NCBI RefSeq assembly: GCF_000797465.1
Contig: NZ_JSWG01000004.1
Span: forward strand, 62,001-126,000
Direction: 5' to 3'
Length of the DNA: 64,000 bases
From: Psychroserpens jangbogonensis
Lineage (GTDB): Bacteria; Bacteroidota; Bacteroidia; Flavobacteriales; Flavobacteriaceae
Of this stretch, positions 7,793 to 20,788 are shown piece after piece. Numbering within the stretch: the first letter of the stretch is position 1; each line of letters opens with the position of its first letter. Below the pieces are notes generated by a model. The model did not search any database. It saw only the letters and a program-made list of their open reading frames with translations, and was not told the DNA's origin. The translations under genes and the position numbers were made by a program.

Positions 7793-7990
7793 ATTTGCGG
7801 TTTTTGTAAGGATATCCATAAAAATTGGAAGTCTGTAAGATTTTAACTACCTTACAATCAGTTAATAGTTGTTTTTCTACTAATTAATTCCCACACCAAT
7901 TTTATTCCCACTGTATAGTTGGAAGGATTTCATATTTTGAAAGCCTTTCCGACCAATTCAACAATGATGTAATTAACCAATAACCATATT

Positions 7991-8026
7991 ATGAAAACAA
8001 GATTATTTTTAACCCTTAAAAACTGA
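7991..8026 (+). other. Short leader reading frame upstream of the LRR gene (11 codons plus stop)
   Basis: ATG at 7991 opens MKTRLFLTLKN and stops at 8024-8026, 5 bases before the ATG of the leucine-rich-repeat gene. It resembles the start of a signal peptide. It could be a translated leader that couples to the next gene or a decayed gene start; nothing in the sequence decides between these. Confidence 0.3.
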
Positions 8027-8031
8027 ATGTT

Positions 8032-9369
8032 ATGAGAAAATTATTACTTATCATCTCTTTTTTAAGCACCAGTTTAACCTTTTCGCAAACCGAAATAAAC
8101 GGTATAAACTATATCCTTAACACCACAGATGACACTGCCAGTGTCACCCAAATTACTGGATGTTATAGTGGAGATATTACCATCCCTGAGACGGTTATAG
8201 ATAGCGGAACGACTTACACAGTAACGAGTATTGGTAATTCAACTTTCGATGGTTGTTCCTTAACATCTATCATCTTACCTAATACGATAACAAGTATTGA
8301 GGATTGGGCTTTCTACTTTTGTGGTTCTTTAGCGTCTATTACCTTGCCTAATTCGCTAACAAGTATTGGTTATGGGGCTTTCTATTATTGTAGTTTCTTA
8401 ACGTCTATCACCTTACCTAATTCGATAACGAGTATTGGTGATAATGCTTTCTATAATTGTAGTTCCTTAACGTCTATCACAATACCTAATTCGATTACGA
8501 GTATTGGGTATGAGACTTTCCGAGAATGTAGTTCCTTAACATCTATCACCTTACCCAATTCGCTAACTAGCATTGGTGATCGTGTTTTCGTAAGTTGTAG
8601 TTCCTTAACATCTATCACCTTACCTAATTCCCTAACGAGTATTGGTCTTGGGGCTTTCGCTGTTTGTACCTCCTTACCATCTATCACCTTACCCAATTCG
8701 ATAACGAGTATTGGTGATAGTGTTTTCGCTGATTGTAGTTCCTTAACATCTATCACCATACCTAATTCGATTACGAGTATTGGTTTTGGGGCTTTCACAG
8801 GTTGTACCTCCTTACTATCTGTCACCTTGCCAAATACGCTAACGAGTATTGGGGATTCTGCTTTCAATTATTGTACCTCCTTACCATCTATCACCTTACC
8901 TAATTCGATAACGAGTATTGGTGATTATGCTTTCCGATATTGTACAGCCTTAACGTCTGTAACAGCACTTAATCCCACACCTATAACCATCAATGCTAAT
9001 GTTTTTCAAGATGCACCTATAGCTAATATCCCTTTATATGTCGTAGATGAGGCAGCAGTAACTGCGTACCAAGCTACAGCAGTTTGGCAAGATTTTAATT
9101 CGGTTACCGTAACAGCATTATCCATAGAAGATTTTGCGATTACTAATAAAATTAAGGTTTATCCAAACCCAACAAATGATATTGTTACTGTTTTAACAAA
9201 AATTCCATTGAAATATAAGATTGTTAATAGTCTTGGTCAAAACGTATTACAAGGAAAGTTAGATGAAAATCATAATCAAATTCAAGTCTCGCATTTGGCA
9301 AAAGGAATCTATGTAATGAGTTTTAATTCATCTGAAGGAAAAATATCTAAAAAGTTAATTATCGATTAA
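8032..9369 (+). CDS. BspA-like leucine-rich repeat surface protein with T9SS sorting domain
   Basis: A 445-residue protein: signal peptide (about 1-18, ending TFSQ), a short N-terminal region, ten tandem 23-residue LRR_5 (BspA-type) repeats at residues 77-306 of the pattern LTSITLPNSITSIGDxxF with a near-C-terminal Cys, then a short linker and a T9SS sorting domain (about 375-445: KVYPNPTNDIV to SKKLIID). Proteins of this kind are exported to the surface and mediate adhesion or binding in other Bacteroidota; the ligand here is unknown. The repeats are also nearly identical at DNA level (69-bp unit), which suggests recent expansion or gene conversion. Preceded by an 11-codon leader frame. Confidence 0.9.
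   Translation: MRKLLLIISFLSTSLTFSQTEINGINYILNTTDDTASVTQITGCYSGDITIPETVIDSGTTYTVTSIGNSTFDGCSLTSIILPNTITSIEDWAFYFCGSLASITLPNSLTSIGYGAFYYCSFLTSITLPNSITSIGDNAFYNCSSLTSITIPNSITSIGYETFRECSSLTSITLPNSLTSIGDRVFVSCSSLTSITLPNSLTSIGLGAFAVCTSLPSITLPNSITSIGDSVFADCSSLTSITIPNSITSIGFGAFTGCTSLLSVTLPNTLTSIGDSAFNYCTSLPSITLPNSITSIGDYAFRYCTALTSVTALNPTPITINANVFQDAPIANIPLYVVDEAAVTAYQATAVWQDFNSVTVTALSIEDFAITNKIKVYPNPTNDIVTVLTKIPLKYKIVNSLGQNVLQGKLDENHNQIQVSHLAKGIYVMSFNSSEGKISKKLIID
8260..8949 (+). repeat. Ten tandem 69-bp coding repeats (LRR units)
   Basis: Each 69-bp unit begins near TTAACATCTATCACCTTACC and contains ACGAGTATTGGT. Units differ mainly in the codons for the variable loop residues after SIG and before Cys, the part expected to line the exposed face. 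The array is wholly inside the LRR gene. Confidence 0.92.
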
Positions 9370-9416
9370 TTCAAGATTTAAAAAAGCAGAGAAACACTTA
9401 CTTGGAGCTTTTATTT

Positions 9417-9866
9417 TCACATCCTTTTGATGACATGTGTCACAATTCCCCAAATTTGAAAATCATTATTTTCTGTCACTAAAATAGGATCATAAACTGG
9501 GTTTTCGGGTTGTAGATATACACCTTCAGGAGTGACTTTTAAACGCTTCACAGTAAACTCTCCATCAATAAAACACACCGCAATTTGTTTGTGTTGTGGA
9601 CTGATACTTTTATCAACTACCAGCAAATCACCATCATCTAACCCAGCTCCAATCATTGACTGTCCGCTAACTTTGGCGTAAAAAGTTGTGTCTTTATTTC
9701 TTACTAGCGTTTTGTCGAGGCTAATTTTAGACTCAGCATAATCATTTGCAGGAGATGGGAGTCCAGCCGAAATACCTGTTTGAGCTAATGCCACTTCTAA
9801 AGGATTACTAGTGTCTGGAGTATAAAACTCAAGAGCATTTTTTGGAGTTAAGAATTTTAAAGACAT
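9417..9866 (-). CDS. umuD: UmuD-like S24 peptidase (translesion polymerase accessory)
   Basis: A 149-residue S24 serine peptidase. It carries the UmuD pattern: a cleavage site Ala34-Gly35 in SAGLPSPANDY, catalytic Ser70 in SGQSM and Lys107 in GEFTVKRL, plus DDGDLLVVD (77-85); E. coli UmuD has the same motifs at similar spacing. In the known system RecA filaments stimulate self-cleavage, and the product joins a Y-family polymerase. Here umuD lies beside, and in opposite direction to, a Y-family polymerase/DnaE operon, with the XRE-S24 regulator in between. An inverted repeat upstream (9880-9895) may be its operator. Confident in family; partner polymerase is inferred. Confidence 0.92.
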   Translation of the reverse strand: MSLKFLTPKNALEFYTPDTSNPLEVALAQTGISAGLPSPANDYAESKISLDKTLVRNKDTTFYAKVSGQSMIGAGLDDGDLLVVDKSISPQHKQIAVCFIDGEFTVKRLKVTPEGVYLQPENPVYDPILVTENNDFQIWGIVTHVIKRM

Positions 9867-17737: not shown

Positions 17738-18178
17738 ATGGAAAGCTTACAGGAATTCCTTTTAAATAAGGGCTATACTAAAATAAAGTTGCACTTAACA
17801 AAGACCAATCATTTTGAGATTATAGCAAAAATTAATGGTCAACGCGGCTTATTTATTTTAGATACAGGAGCTTCTAGTTCTTGTGTTGGTTTTGAGGCTA
17901 TAGATACTTTTAACCTTAAGGCAAAAGATAGCGATATCAAGGCGGCAGGAGCAGGAGCTACAGATATGTTAACTCAAATTTCTAAGAGTAATAAACTAAA
18001 GATAGGAAAATGGAAAGAAGATAAAGTTGCGCTTATCCTTTTTAATTTAACCCATGTAAATACTGCGTTAACCAATCATAATTCTAAACCTGTAGACGGA
18101 ATTATAGGAGCAGATGTTCTTAAAAAAGGAAAGGCTGTAATCGATTATGAAAAAAAGTATTTATATCTAAAGTTGTAA
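17738..18178 (+). CDS. Retropepsin-like (clan AA) aspartic protease family protein
   Basis: A 146-residue soluble protein with no signal peptide. The catalytic-type motif LDTGASSS (residues 41-48) and the later hydrophobic-hydrophobic-Gly motif DGIIGADVL (about 119-127) fit a single-domain retropepsin fold, which would work as a homodimer with one Asp42 from each subunit. Bacterial members of this group are poorly characterised and the substrate is unknown. The gene is upstream of, and in the same direction as, the NarL-type response regulator (42-base gap), so the two may be cotranscribed. Confidence 0.8.
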   Translation: MESLQEFLLNKGYTKIKLHLTKTNHFEIIAKINGQRGLFILDTGASSSCVGFEAIDTFNLKAKDSDIKAAGAGATDMLTQISKSNKLKIGKWKEDKVALILFNLTHVNTALTNHNSKPVDGIIGADVLKKGKAVIDYEKKYLYLKL

Positions 18179-18220: not shown

Positions 18221-18856
18221 ATGCCTACATCTATAATCATCGCAGATGATCATCCCCTAATCCTTAAAGGGCTCAAAGACTTCCTTCTTGAAAAAGAATT
18301 TAACGTAATTGCAAGTGCAAAAAATGGAAAGGAGGCATTTACACTTATCAACGCACATCAACCTGAGATAGCTATTTTAGATATTCAAATGCCATATCTT
18401 ACTGGTTTACAGGTTGCTAAAAAATGCAAGGATGCTGGGTTAATAACTAAAATTATTATTATCACTTTCGAAAAAAGTGAAGATATTTATAACGAAGCTA
18501 AGTCTCTCGGTATATATGGATATATTCTTAAGGAGTTTGCCATTGAAGAAGTTGAAAACTGTATTGCAAATGTGTTGCAGGAACGCTCATATTTTAGTCC
18601 AGAGTTGATAGAGTATTTAGAAATAAAGCAAACGCCTGAGGAGTTGAAATCACTTACAGTTACTGAAATGAAAGTGCTTCAACTAACAGCCAAAAATAAA
18701 ACTGCTAAAGAAATTGGAGCAATCATAGGTTGTTCAAATAGAACTGTTGAAAAACACAAAAGTCATATTCGATCTAAGTTAAAGTTGTCTTCTAATGCAA
18801 ATAGTATAGCAATTTATGCAAAAGGACAAGAGGAATTTTTAGCAAAATATACGTAG
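18221..18856 (+). CDS. NarL/LuxR-family response regulator
   Basis: A 211-residue two-domain regulator. The receiver domain (about 1-120) has the acidic pair Asp9-Asp10, phospho-acceptor Asp54 (AILDIQMP), a Thr in IITFE and the conserved Lys in YILKE. A GerE/LuxR-type helix-turn-helix occupies about 145-210 (LTVTEMKVLQLTAKNKTAKEIG, spread over 147-168, then SNRTVEKHKSHIRSKL). No sensor kinase is adjacent, so it is an orphan here. Its stop codon TAG lies inside the first of three identical palindromes that front tandem short transcripts, so it is the obvious candidate to bind them; this link is inference. ATG at 18221 gives a normal receiver start. Confidence 0.92.
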   Translation: MPTSIIIADDHPLILKGLKDFLLEKEFNVIASAKNGKEAFTLINAHQPEIAILDIQMPYLTGLQVAKKCKDAGLITKIIIITFEKSEDIYNEAKSLGIYGYILKEFAIEEVENCIANVLQERSYFSPELIEYLEIKQTPEELKSLTVTEMKVLQLTAKNKTAKEIGAIIGCSNRTVEKHKSHIRSKLKLSSNANSIAIYAKGQEEFLAKYT

Positions 18857-18896
18857 TTCTACGTATTGTTTGGTATAGATTTTATGCCGAAGTTTG
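18850..18896 (+). promoter_or_regulatory. Palindrome-controlled promoter, copy 1
   Basis: The inverted repeat TACGTAG-TT-CTACGTA (18850-18865) overlaps the stop codon of the response regulator. TTG at 18866-18868 abuts it as a minus-33 element. After 24 bases TTTG follows (18893-18896) in the context CCGAAGTTTG, i.e. a minus-7 box lacking the usual TA. Weak minus-7 plus an adjoining operator suggests an activator-dependent promoter. Confidence 0.7.
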
Positions 18897-18899
18897 TAT

Positions 18900-18968
18900 T
18901 GCTATTAATTCTTTAGGGAGAGTTATTTTACAAAAAGCCTTGAATTGTCATTGATTCAAGGTTTTTTT
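18900..18968 (+). ncRNA. Candidate small RNA 1 of a tandem trio
   Basis: Predicted from a promoter upstream and an intrinsic terminator at its end; about 69 nt. It starts near TGCTATTAATT, contains AGGGAG, and holds no reading frame. The start is an estimate from the promoter spacing. The first bases after the TTTG resemble those of copy 2. It could be a trans-acting regulatory RNA; target unknown. Confidence 0.6.
18932..18968 (+). terminator. Terminator of small RNA 1
   Basis: A-run, stem CCTTGAAT/ATTCAAGG with an eight-base loop, then seven T. Confidence 0.8.
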
Positions 18969-18997
18969 ATGGGTAAAAAGTAAAAAAAGCCAAAATA

Positions 18998-19044
18998 TAC
19001 GTAGTTCTACGTATTGTATTGCATTGATTTAATACCGAAGTTTG
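18998..19044 (+). promoter_or_regulatory. Palindrome-controlled promoter, copy 2
   Basis: The same 16-base palindrome as copy 1 (18998-19013), followed at once by TTG and, 24 bases later, by TTTG (19041-19044), again preceded by CCGAAG. Spacing is identical to copy 1. Confidence 0.7.
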
Positions 19045-19047
19045 TAA

Positions 19048-19118
19048 TGCTATTAATCAATTTTCCTTTTGAAATAAAGGATAAAGGCTCTGAGTTTTTA
19101 CAGCTCAGAGCTTTTTTT
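19048..19118 (+). ncRNA. Candidate small RNA 2 of a tandem trio
   Basis: About 70 nt between promoter copy 2 and a strong terminator. The 5' part begins TGCTATTAATC like copy 1, but the middle differs (GAAATAAAGGATAAAGG). No reading frame. The shared 5' end with divergent bodies suggests duplicated units with either a common seed or only a common promoter. Confidence 0.6.
19084..19118 (+). terminator. Terminator of small RNA 2
   Basis: Stem GCTCTGAG/CTCAGAGC, loop of nine, followed by seven T. Confidence 0.85.
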
Positions 19119-19188
19119 ATGCATTATTAAATTTTAACATTTAATAAATATCTGTTTTTTAGTGATTTAAAAATTTATTTAAGCCTTA

Positions 19189-19235
19189 TACGTAGTTCTA
19201 CGTATTGTGCCGCTTTGATTAATTGCCGAGTTTTA
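19189..19235 (+). promoter_or_regulatory. Palindrome-controlled promoter, copy 3
   Basis: The same palindrome (19189-19204) and abutting TTG (19205-19207); the TTTG position reads TTTA (19232-19235) after GCCGAGT. The site is kept although the minus-7 box is weaker than in copies 1 and 2. Confidence 0.65.
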
Positions 19236-19238
19236 CAT

Positions 19239-19343
19239 TATGTTATTTATATAGGGATTATGAATAGCAACTAATTAATCTTAATTAACAAGATAATTAG
19301 TTATAGGGTGTAAAGTTCTGGGGTATTTTATCCCAGGACTTTA
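19239..19343 (+). ncRNA. Candidate small RNA 3 or structured leader of the small membrane peptide gene
   Basis: Downstream of promoter copy 3. Two hairpins are visible: CTAATTAATCTT/AAGATAATTAG (19271-19300, one bulged A) and AGTTCTGGG/CCCAGGACT (19314-19340, one G-T pair) followed by TTTATTAT, a poor T-run. It may end here as a third small RNA, or read through into the peptide gene at 19372 as a 5' leader. Confidence 0.45.
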
Positions 19344-19371
19344 TTATAAAACAATTCAAAATCGAAACAAA

Positions 19372-19482
19372 ATGGATACAATGAAACACAAAACGAGTCT
19401 AACCAACAAATTTTTTATAACAGGCTTAATTATTAGCGCTGTTGTAATCATTGCAGTAAATATTCTTGTTAATTTTTTTTAG
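19372..19482 (+). CDS. Small single-span membrane peptide (36 residues)
   Basis: ATG at 19372 (a second in-frame ATG lies at 19381) opens a 36-residue frame ending TAG at 19480-19482. The first part is basic and polar (MKHKTSLTNK) and the rest is one hydrophobic helix (FFITGLIISAVVIIAVNILV), so it should insert in the inner membrane. A strong terminator follows 28 bases after the stop. The frame sits directly after the third palindrome-controlled unit and may be its real coding product. No family recognised. Confidence 0.5.
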   Translation: MDTMKHKTSLTNKFFITGLIISAVVIIAVNILVNFF

Positions 19483-19510
19483 TTATTAGTTAGTTATTTT
19501 TATTAGGGAG

Positions 19511-19548
19511 AAAAAGCGCATTCCAAATCTTCGGAATGCGCTTTTTTA
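19511..19548. terminator. Bidirectional terminator
   Basis: Stem AAAAAGCGCATTCC/GGAATGCGCTTTTTT between the small peptide gene (plus) and odhB (minus, stop at 19574). Confidence 0.88.
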
Positions 19549-19573
19549 TTTAAATAACTTATGCTGAAATGGG

Positions 19574-20788
19574 TTACATTTCTAGAGCTTTCTTAATGTT
19601 GTTATCCATTAATAATTCTGTTGGGTTTTCTAAAGCTTCTTTAACAGCTACTAAGAAACCTACAGATTCTTTACCATCAATAATTCTGTGGTCATAAGAT
19701 AAAGCCACAAACATAATTGGTCTAATTTCTACTTTACCATTAATTGCAACTGGACGCTCAACAATATTGTGCATTCCTAAAATTCCACTTTGAGGTGGAT
19801 TAATAATTGGCGTAGATAACATACTTCCAAAAACACCACCATTAGAAATGGTGAATGTTCCTCCTGTCATTTCATCAACAGTAATTTGTCCATCACGAGC
19901 GCGAATTGCTAAACGTTTTACTTCAGCCTCAACTCCTCTAAAACTTAAATTTTCAGCATTTCTAATCACAGGAACCATTAAACCTTTTGGTCCCGAAACT
20001 GCAATAGAAATATCAACAAAGTCATAGGTTAACATTTCTTTTCCGTCAATCATTGAGTTGACTGCTGGATACATTTTTAATGCACGAACGACCGCAAGAG
20101 TAAAGAAACTCATAAACCCAAGCCCTACACCATGTTTCGCTTTAAAGTCTTCCTTGTATTGTTTTCTTAATTCAAAAATAGGAGACATGTCAACTTCGTT
20201 AAACGTAGTTAACATTGCTGTAGTGTTTTTAGCTTCTACTAATCGCTCAGCTACTTTACGACGCAACATAGACATTTTGCTGTGAGAACTACCACGATTT
20301 CCTCCTGTTGGAGTTCCCATAGATGGTATTGCATTTACAGCATCATCTTTAGTAATTCGTCCGTCTTTTCCAGAACCAGATACAGCAGAAGAATCAATTC
20401 CTTTTTCATCTAAAATCTTTTTAGCAGCAGGACTCGCTGTTCCTGTAGCATACGTTTTAGTTTCTGTAGTTGGTTTAGGTGCCTCTTTTTTAGGAGCTTC
20501 TTCTTTTTTCTCTTCTTTTGCAGGAGAAGCAGCATCACCTTCAGGTTTTGCAGCACTTGTATCTATTAAGCAAACAACAGCTCCAACAGTAACAGCATCA
20601 CCTTCTTCGGCTTTAAGTGTTATTATTCCACTTGCTTCGGCAGGTAATTCTAATGTTGCTTTATCACTATCAACTTCTGCTATAGCTTGATCTTTTTCAA
20701 CATAATCTCCATCGGAAACTAACCATTCAGCAATTTCTACTTCTGTGATTGATTCTCCTGGAGAAGGAACTTTCATTTCTAAAATCAT
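19574..20788 (-). CDS. odhB: Dihydrolipoyllysine-residue succinyltransferase (E2 of 2-oxoglutarate dehydrogenase)
   Basis: Transfers succinyl groups to CoA in the TCA cycle. The 404-residue protein has one lipoyl domain (1-75, lipoylated Lys43 in VDSDKATLE), a Pro/Ala/Lys/Glu-rich linker, a peripheral subunit-binding domain (about 114-152, [15 protein letters not shown]) and the acyltransferase core (about 175-404) with His367 and Asp371 in SYDHRIIDG. It is 76 bases downstream of odhA (sucA), and both are read on the minus strand as one operon. Also known as sucB. Confidence 0.96.

Follow-up and report, generated by a model that had tools for sequence, protein, structure and literature searches.

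The 64,000-nt stretch of DNA analysed here (the window) comes from Psychroserpens jangbogonensis, a member of the Flavobacteriaceae (assembly GCF_000797465.1, contig NZ_JSWG01000004.1, positions 62,001-126,000 of the forward strand), and carries a locus in which a response regulator (RR) gene is followed by three copies of one operator. In the full best explanation, to which we give a probability of about 0.68, the locus is conserved as an output of a NarL-type two-component regulator. The core of this explanation, namely that tandem small RNAs (sRNAs) and a microprotein are driven by the RR, appears highly probable. The locus itself is real, conserved and apparently undescribed, and no description of it was found in open-licence papers of PubMed Central (PMC). 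Its parts, in window positions, are as follows.

18221-18856, + strand: NarL/FixJ-type response regulator gene, proposed activator, with a receiver and a GerE helix-turn-helix (HTH) domain
18850-18865, + strand: operator 1, TACGTAGTTCTACGTA, overlapping the RR stop codon
18866-18896, + strand: promoter 1, TTG (-33-like) and GAAGTTTG (-7-like, compare TAnnTTTG)
18901-18968, + strand: unit 1, predicted sRNA of ~68 nt (type A), a 5' hairpin with UUAGGG in its loop region followed by a terminator
18998-19013, + strand: operator 2, exact copy of TACGTAGTTCTACGTA
19014-19044, + strand: promoter 2, TTG and GAAGTTTG
19049-19118, + strand: unit 2, predicted sRNA of ~70 nt (type B), with an unpaired 5' end GCUAUUAAUCAAUU (19049-19062), a small hairpin and a terminator
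19189-19204, + strand: operator 3, exact copy of TACGTAGTTCTACGTA
19205-19235, + strand: promoter 3, TTG and GAGTTTTA
19239-19345, + strand: unit 3 (type C), a structured leader with two AGGG motifs and a hairpin lacking a long T-run
19372-19482, + strand: frame of a 36-amino-acid (aa) single-helix membrane microprotein, MDTMKHKTSLTNKFFITGLIISAVVIIAVNILVNFF, with counterparts in relatives
19511-19547, + strand: terminator after the microprotein gene, read from the sequence and preceded by another UUAGGGAGAA

According to the proposed mechanism, the RR would be activated, presumably by phosphorylation at Asp54, and in its active form would bind TACGTA-N4-TACGTA beside the -33 element, centred near -45. 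The bound regulator would switch on weak promoters, which have xAnnTTTG/A in place of TAnnTTTG, and these would yield at least two short terminated sRNAs (units 1 and 2) as well as a leader mRNA for the microprotein (unit 3); the presumed 5' ends of the units are placed at the start of GCUAUUAAU. Unit 2 would most likely act by base-pairing, using the 14 nt of its exposed and invariant 5' end. Other transcripts of the genome appear to start with this 14-mer too, and its exact complements just upstream of terminators elsewhere would be candidate targets or sponges. Unit 1 would present a conserved UUAGGG loop.

A preliminary description of this DNA had reported three exact 16-base sites at 18850, 18998 and 19189, and these are confirmed: at up to 3 mismatches, TACGTAGTTCTACGTA gives 6 matches (three sites on both strands) against 0.44 expected, and 0/100 shuffles reach 6. 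The sites had been called palindromes, which holds for the half-sites of the TACGTA-N4-TACGTA form but not for the 4-nt spacer, GTTC. Each operator is followed by TTG-N24-TTTG (units 1 and 2) or TTG-N24-TTTA (unit 3); the spacing is common to all three, but the 24 bases, at first thought to be the same, differ. The RR gene, described as lying directly upstream, does so with the correction that operator 1 overlaps its stop codon. The first operator begins 4 nt before the RR stop codon in 31 of 109 operator-bearing loci, the gene end and the operator sharing bases.

This arrangement, which had been proposed for a search in related genomes and whose absence from all of them would have been a refutation, is present there. 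Among 80 named loci, the best 80 of 556 found by RR similarity alone (52-86% identity), all 80 have an operator within 1 kb downstream of the RR, with 182 operators in total. TTT[GA] lies 27 nt past the palindrome in 180 of these operators and 26 nt past it in the other two; on the opposite side, taken as a control, no TTT[GA] occurs in the same range for 108/182, and the other 74 are spread over 22-32. The bases preceding TTT[GA] are mostly GAnn or CAnn. The Bacteroidota -7 box is TAnnTTTG, and the GAnn/CAnn form may represent a weak version of it, as expected of activator-dependent promoters. Within the genus, 22/22 Psychroserpens loci fetched by RR, the present one included, contain two to five tandem units; type B occurs in 21 of them and type C was recognised in 20.

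At the family level, 71 of 149 Flavobacteriaceae genomes contain an RR orthologue (E <= 7.9e-82), with a gap before the paralogues, all of which have E >= 1.5e-73; a partial match of 107 residues in one further genome (G051) was left out. The strict operator pattern TACGTANNNNTACGTATTG was found in 39/149 genomes and its reversed control in none; this pattern misses TAG and TTT variants such as TACGTATAG (54/182 operators). Co-occurrence of RR, operator and RNA was counted from hand-compiled lists, in which the type-B RNA model R1 matches in 38/71 genomes with an RR orthologue and in 17/78 without one, several of the latter matches being weak. Across the order, R1 matches in 7/119 genomes at E <= 0.001, and the five outside the family are weak (1.2e-4 or worse). 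Thirty R1 loci were read, of which 23 adjoin the RR, two (L084 and L097; L and G numbers label fetched loci and genomes) are arrays without it, and five resemble chance terminators.

The strongest evidence for binding by the adjacent RR or its close kin comes from co-variation between the operator spacer and the HTH domain. The protein consists of Response_reg (5.6e-24) and GerE (2.4e-13) domains with no other Pfam domain over cut-off, and Asp54 is invariant in 29/29 aligned RRs. A single locus tends to use a single spacer across its copies: this holds for 75/96 multi-operator loci, whereas shuffles average 21.7 and never exceed 33. In a set of 109 operator-bearing RR loci, identical proteins being counted once, spacer difference follows HTH distance when receiver distance is controlled (partial r 0.36, 0/500 permutations); in the reverse test, the receiver after HTH correction gives r 0.04 (79/500 permutations). 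Residue 193, presumably just past the recognition helix, is Gln in 20/20 AAGT and 7/7 ACGT loci, and Ala, Ser or Gly in 36/43 GAAC loci. Two loci, L059 from Psychroserpens and L143 from Gelidibacter mesophilus, combine AAGT spacers and an HTH nearest the AAGT type with receivers nearest those of GAAC or mixed-type loci, and L175 has TACGCA in both half-sites together with an altered recognition helix. Because the spacers co-vary with the DNA-binding domain after receiver correction, it is very likely that the adjacent RR or close kin reads the palindromes, as an activator near -45. Control of this type by the neighbouring NarL-type regulator had been suggested from the start, and both the linkage to the RR, seen in all the named and all the Psychroserpens loci, and this co-variation speak for it.

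Units 1 and 2 were described as ending in strong terminators and having no reading frame, and both statements stand. Each ends in a strong hairpin and a T-run, their predicted folds are more stable than those of shuffled sequences (unit 1, -20.9 kcal/mol, z -4.8; unit 2, z -4.7), and the open reading frame (ORF) list of the window holds no ORF of at least 40 aa in either. In the cross-genus alignment of type A, where 29 of 38 collected rows were kept and nine dropped as type-B-like, the 5' hairpin is conserved, with 91.6% of cells paired in the true register and no slid register exceeding 58%, and the terminator helix shows many compensatory changes. All 21 aligned genus copies of type B, the present one included, begin with the identical 14 nt GCUAUUAAUCAAUU, and nucleotides 1-15 have a predicted unpaired probability of at least 0.93. 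An exposed invariant 5' end is a typical pairing seed, and unit 2 rather probably base-pairs through it.

A different mode of action, resembling that of RsmY/Z, would be protein titration, in which the AGGG(A) hairpin loops of unit 1 and of the unit-3 leader soak up an RNA-binding protein instead of pairing with mRNA. AGGG is found in the 5' hairpin of 23/25 genus type-A copies (not in L047 or in the third copy of L048) and in all 29 kept cross-genus rows, and one of the dropped rows (L092) has a similar hairpin without AGGG; the motif recurs in unit 3 and after the microprotein gene, and some Winogradskyella units have, by eye, two AGGG-type hairpins. In the window, unit 1 has one UUAGGGA-type loop and unit 2 has no AGGG. 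Such titration is nevertheless unlikely. Unit 2 has instead an invariant single-stranded 5' end, and AGGG occurs within 150 nt after only 120/182 operators. The search for CsrA/RsmA gave no match at all in 22 genus genomes and none over cut-off in 37, while 3/14 control genomes were positive; titration of CsrA itself is rejected for the genus on the absence of a match in those 22 genomes.

The third unit had been counted as another small RNA, and here the description holds for units 1 and 2 only. The unit-3 leader is strongly structured (-36.5 kcal/mol, z -7.5) and leads into the 36-aa frame. A loose search for frames of 27-60 codons within 520 nt of an operator found a short frame with one hydrophobic stretch in 79/80 named loci, all except L139. 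Because frame and helix recur at the same place across genera, unit 3 is best read as the leader of a microprotein mRNA. Among frames of equal length, a crude codon comparison gives more nonsynonymous than synonymous differing codons (2234 versus 1449 in the 36-aa class), which by itself is no proof of selection on the frame. In three genera (L189, L192 and L198, from G059, G082 and G083) the operator also precedes a gene for a 60-68-aa membrane-type protein ending in PTGS, likely a second regulon member.

If the microprotein were the actual product, the terminated units could be premature-termination products, that is, attenuated leaders of microprotein genes whose duplicates have lost the frame. 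Unit 3 does run into the microprotein ORF, by eye a microprotein-like frame comes after each of the two units of G040, and in six genomes the leader of a histidine-kinase gene contains the unit-2 14-mer, four of these leaders having a terminator-like hairpin detected by script. This account is improbable, however: units 1 and 2 are frameless, and an unused leader would not need the 14-nt 5' end that unit 2 keeps unchanged in 21/21 genus copies.

Several observations weigh against the best explanation. The control side of the palindrome is not fully random, since 40 of its 74 TTT[GA] fall at 26-28. In the hand-compiled lists the strict operator occurs in 33/71 genomes with an RR orthologue and also in 6/78 without one. 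Spacer identity between copies could partly reflect gene conversion, and the 109-locus co-variation set was partly fetched by operator or RNA patterns. Co-variation in the unit-1 hairpin is modest, two pairs being changed on both sides in one sequence each. At least four genomes (G040, G069, G121 and G184) retain the array in the same genomic position but lack an RR gene beside it. In addition, a palindrome of another sequence, AGGTAnnTATACCT, precedes extra type-A units in some congeners (L043, L048-L050, L054, L056, L058, L059 and L203).

Part of this evidence also bears on the idea that the reader of the palindromes is another regulator, or a group of paralogous RRs, rather than the adjacent RR specifically. 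In the family search, which covered G040, G069 and G121, these three gave no RR match at E <= 1e-45, so something else must read the array there. Paralogous RRs in G028, G029 and G152 (L195, L194 and L214) lie next to TACGTA-type palindromes whose spacers differ (GACC/GGTC, GTGA) and next to ORFs of very large size, secreted-looking by eye; this is possibly a sister layout of the circuit, and it suggests that spacers keep paralogous circuits apart. The AGGTA-type palindrome CAGGTAnnTATACCTAT, which precedes extra units, occurs in 9/23 genus genomes, with nine of its 12 places at this array. Its three sites away from the locus (L209-L211) have no recognisable regulator gene. A 40-45% RR paralogue was considered as the reader of this palindrome and rejected, its presence not tracking the extra units by eye. 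Against a reader other than the adjacent RR stands the co-variation of spacer class with that RR's HTH, two separate switches included, and such a reader is of low probability.

That the three sites are mere repeats of a mobile-element or structural kind is most improbable: two more copies do lie in an accessory-looking, cassette-like region of contig 61, followed there by TAAAAAAG and not TTG, but the fixed 27-nt distance to TTT[GA], the linkage to the RR in many genera, the HTH co-variation and the reversed-pattern control of 0 in 149 genomes all oppose it. In the genome of P. jangbogonensis (G000), TACGTANNNNTACGTA occurs at six places, three at the locus, one before a large ORF on contig 6 and two on contig 61. 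The latter two (L007, G000:C61:72000-90000, at 7860-9670) are palindromes amid a run of unrelated ORFs with similar boundaries by eye, ACAACGTGTATA...GCAACTAACCATACGCATACACGT, a run that resembles mobile gene cassettes.

Beyond the locus, the 14-mer of unit 2 is over-represented. GCUAUUAAUCAAUU or its complement occurs 2-13 times per genome, unit 2 counted, in 23/23 Psychroserpens genomes, with no match for the reversed control. In the 149 family genomes it was found 221 times in 64 genomes against one match for the reversed control, and 177 of the 221 sites lie in the 71 genomes with an RR orthologue. This excess suggests base-pairing, perhaps with sponge RNAs. Among 55 sites examined in six genomes (the RR-locus copy excluded and one G157 site unread), a terminator-like hairpin lies downstream on the sense strand at 18, on the complementary strand at 21, on both at none and on neither at 16, some of these last being inside ORFs. 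Many of the sites are mutually orthologous and not independent, amounting by eye to roughly a dozen independent loci.

One group of sense sites belongs to short terminated RNAs that again begin with the 14-mer; in G000 they form a second tandem pair (contig 34:11017 and 11229, L258) ~51 kb upstream of the window, and each of the six genomes has one to three copies. Another sense site is the leader of a histidine kinase, again in six genomes, whose domains TPR, HisKA_3 and HATPase_c were tested in the P. jangbogonensis genome only. Kinases of the TPR-HisKA_3 type partner NarL regulators, and this one is a candidate sensor, no more. On the complementary side are an RNA with AAUUGAUUAAUAGC in a predicted hairpin region before its terminator (all six genomes), a 3' untranslated region (UTR; four genomes) and a short unit whose neighbours, judged by eye, are purE-like and peptidase-like genes (five genomes). 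Computed unit-2 duplexes at four sites, for which there is no shuffled control, range from -22.6 to -32.1 kcal/mol. In seven loci of seven genera (L335, L337, L345, L346, L349, L351 and L359) the exact 14-nt complement lies 190-283 nt before the start codon of one gene, which we take to encode a DegT-type aminotransferase. By eye the complement is part of a leader hairpin there, and at least four of the seven genomes have a different sRNA 5' end at the RR locus; this gene is only a lead.

Taken together, these sites may outline an RNA network that operates in the Flavobacteriaceae independently of Hfq and CsrA. A single 5' seed of 14 nt, GCUAUUAAUCAAUU, would be distributed across sRNAs and mRNA leaders with different promoters, among them one driven by the RR and one leading the TPR histidine kinase; exact complements right before terminators, in 3' UTRs and dedicated small RNAs, would serve as targets or sponges, the operators would co-evolve with the HTH, and the microprotein would be co-activated. 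As a whole this picture is tentative and somewhat doubtful, with several results counting against it. Of the 21 sites with the complement before a terminator, ten carry TTT[GA] right before the sense 14-mer as well; because their direction is ambiguous, the estimate for the network was lowered slightly. In one genome, G023, the 14-mer is found twelve times although neither the RR nor unit 2 has a match there. Unit-1 duplexes at the same four sites reach -18.8 to -25.6 kcal/mol, and at one of these sites unit 1 is predicted to pair more strongly than unit 2. For the type-A complement AACTAATTAATAGC there is no clear family-wide excess beyond the sRNAs themselves: it occurs in 47/149 genomes with one to three matches each, many of the listed places being the sRNAs, against five reversed-control matches. 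No target is therefore claimed for unit 1.

The locus resembles known loci in which an RR drives several sRNAs. GacA of the Gammaproteobacteria, a NarL-family response regulator, controls several short hairpin sRNAs, RsmX/Y/Z, by way of a palindromic site upstream of them. The likeness lies in the NarL/FixJ-family RR with its Response_reg and GerE domains and in the palindromic site upstream of each RNA promoter; the GacA box differs in sequence from TACGTA-N4-TACGTA, and the present locus further differs in its adjacent RR gene, in the base-pairing-type 5' end of unit 2 and in the microprotein as a third output. LuxO of Vibrio drives the sibling sRNAs Qrr1-5, and one RR with several sibling sRNAs is the common feature here. 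LuxO is a sigma-54 activator and the Qrr RNAs need Hfq, whereas the Pfam scan shows no sigma-54-type AAA+ domain in the present RR, and Hfq was found in 0/24 genomes searched (14 of the genus), with 5/14 control genomes positive. Both parallels, drawn in the preliminary description, hold only as analogies, as the tested hallmarks, namely CsrA, Hfq and a sigma-54 activator domain, are absent.

Among the descriptions compared, the nearest RNA analogue appears to be FopS. In the sections of the source available, FopS and GibS of Bacteroides thetaiotaomicron are paralogous sRNAs of ~65-70 nt with a common 5' seed that are bound by RbpB, and the 14 FopS loci comprise nine intergenic, four antisense and one 3'UTR-derived (PMC11697453). 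The present units, known from sequence alone, are likewise predicted paralogous RNAs of ~65-70 nt with a common 5' seed; they differ in being tandem and beside a candidate activator, and the likeness is one of description. Rfp18 of Flavobacterium psychrophilum is another genus-conserved Flavobacteriaceae sRNA, compared by description only; it has at least three stem-loops, and the term "response regulator" does not occur in the main text (PMC9723704). The comparison with Rfam, as had been advised, gave no family match at the gathering cut-off in the locus: with Rfam 15 only two tRNAs, elsewhere in the window, pass it, and the 28 weak matches in 18700-19580 are all below cut-offs. The region 18800-19520 had no match in a plasmid collection.

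Two genes flank the locus.

17738-18178, + strand: retroviral-type aspartyl protease gene (Pfam Asp_protease_2, 3.2e-12), a flank whose membership in the circuit is not shown
19574-20788, - strand: dihydrolipoyl succinyltransferase-like gene (ORF), presumably sucB

By eye, a similar protease gene flanks the array in G040, G069, G121 and G184, and the succinyltransferase-like gene forms the same flank in G040, G069 and G184.

Activators of sRNAs in the Bacteroidota are little known, and the possible activator of FopS is called unknown in the available sections of its description (PMC11697453). In the present case the sequence shows a candidate activator and its operator along with several predicted sRNAs, a microprotein and complementary sites, and all of these recur in many genera of a large marine family. 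The control of sRNAs by a response regulator thereby becomes directly testable in a lineage without detected Hfq or CsrA. Moreover, the matched switches of HTH and spacer are natural variants with which to test how the centre of an operator is recognised by NarL-type regulators and how paralogues are kept apart.

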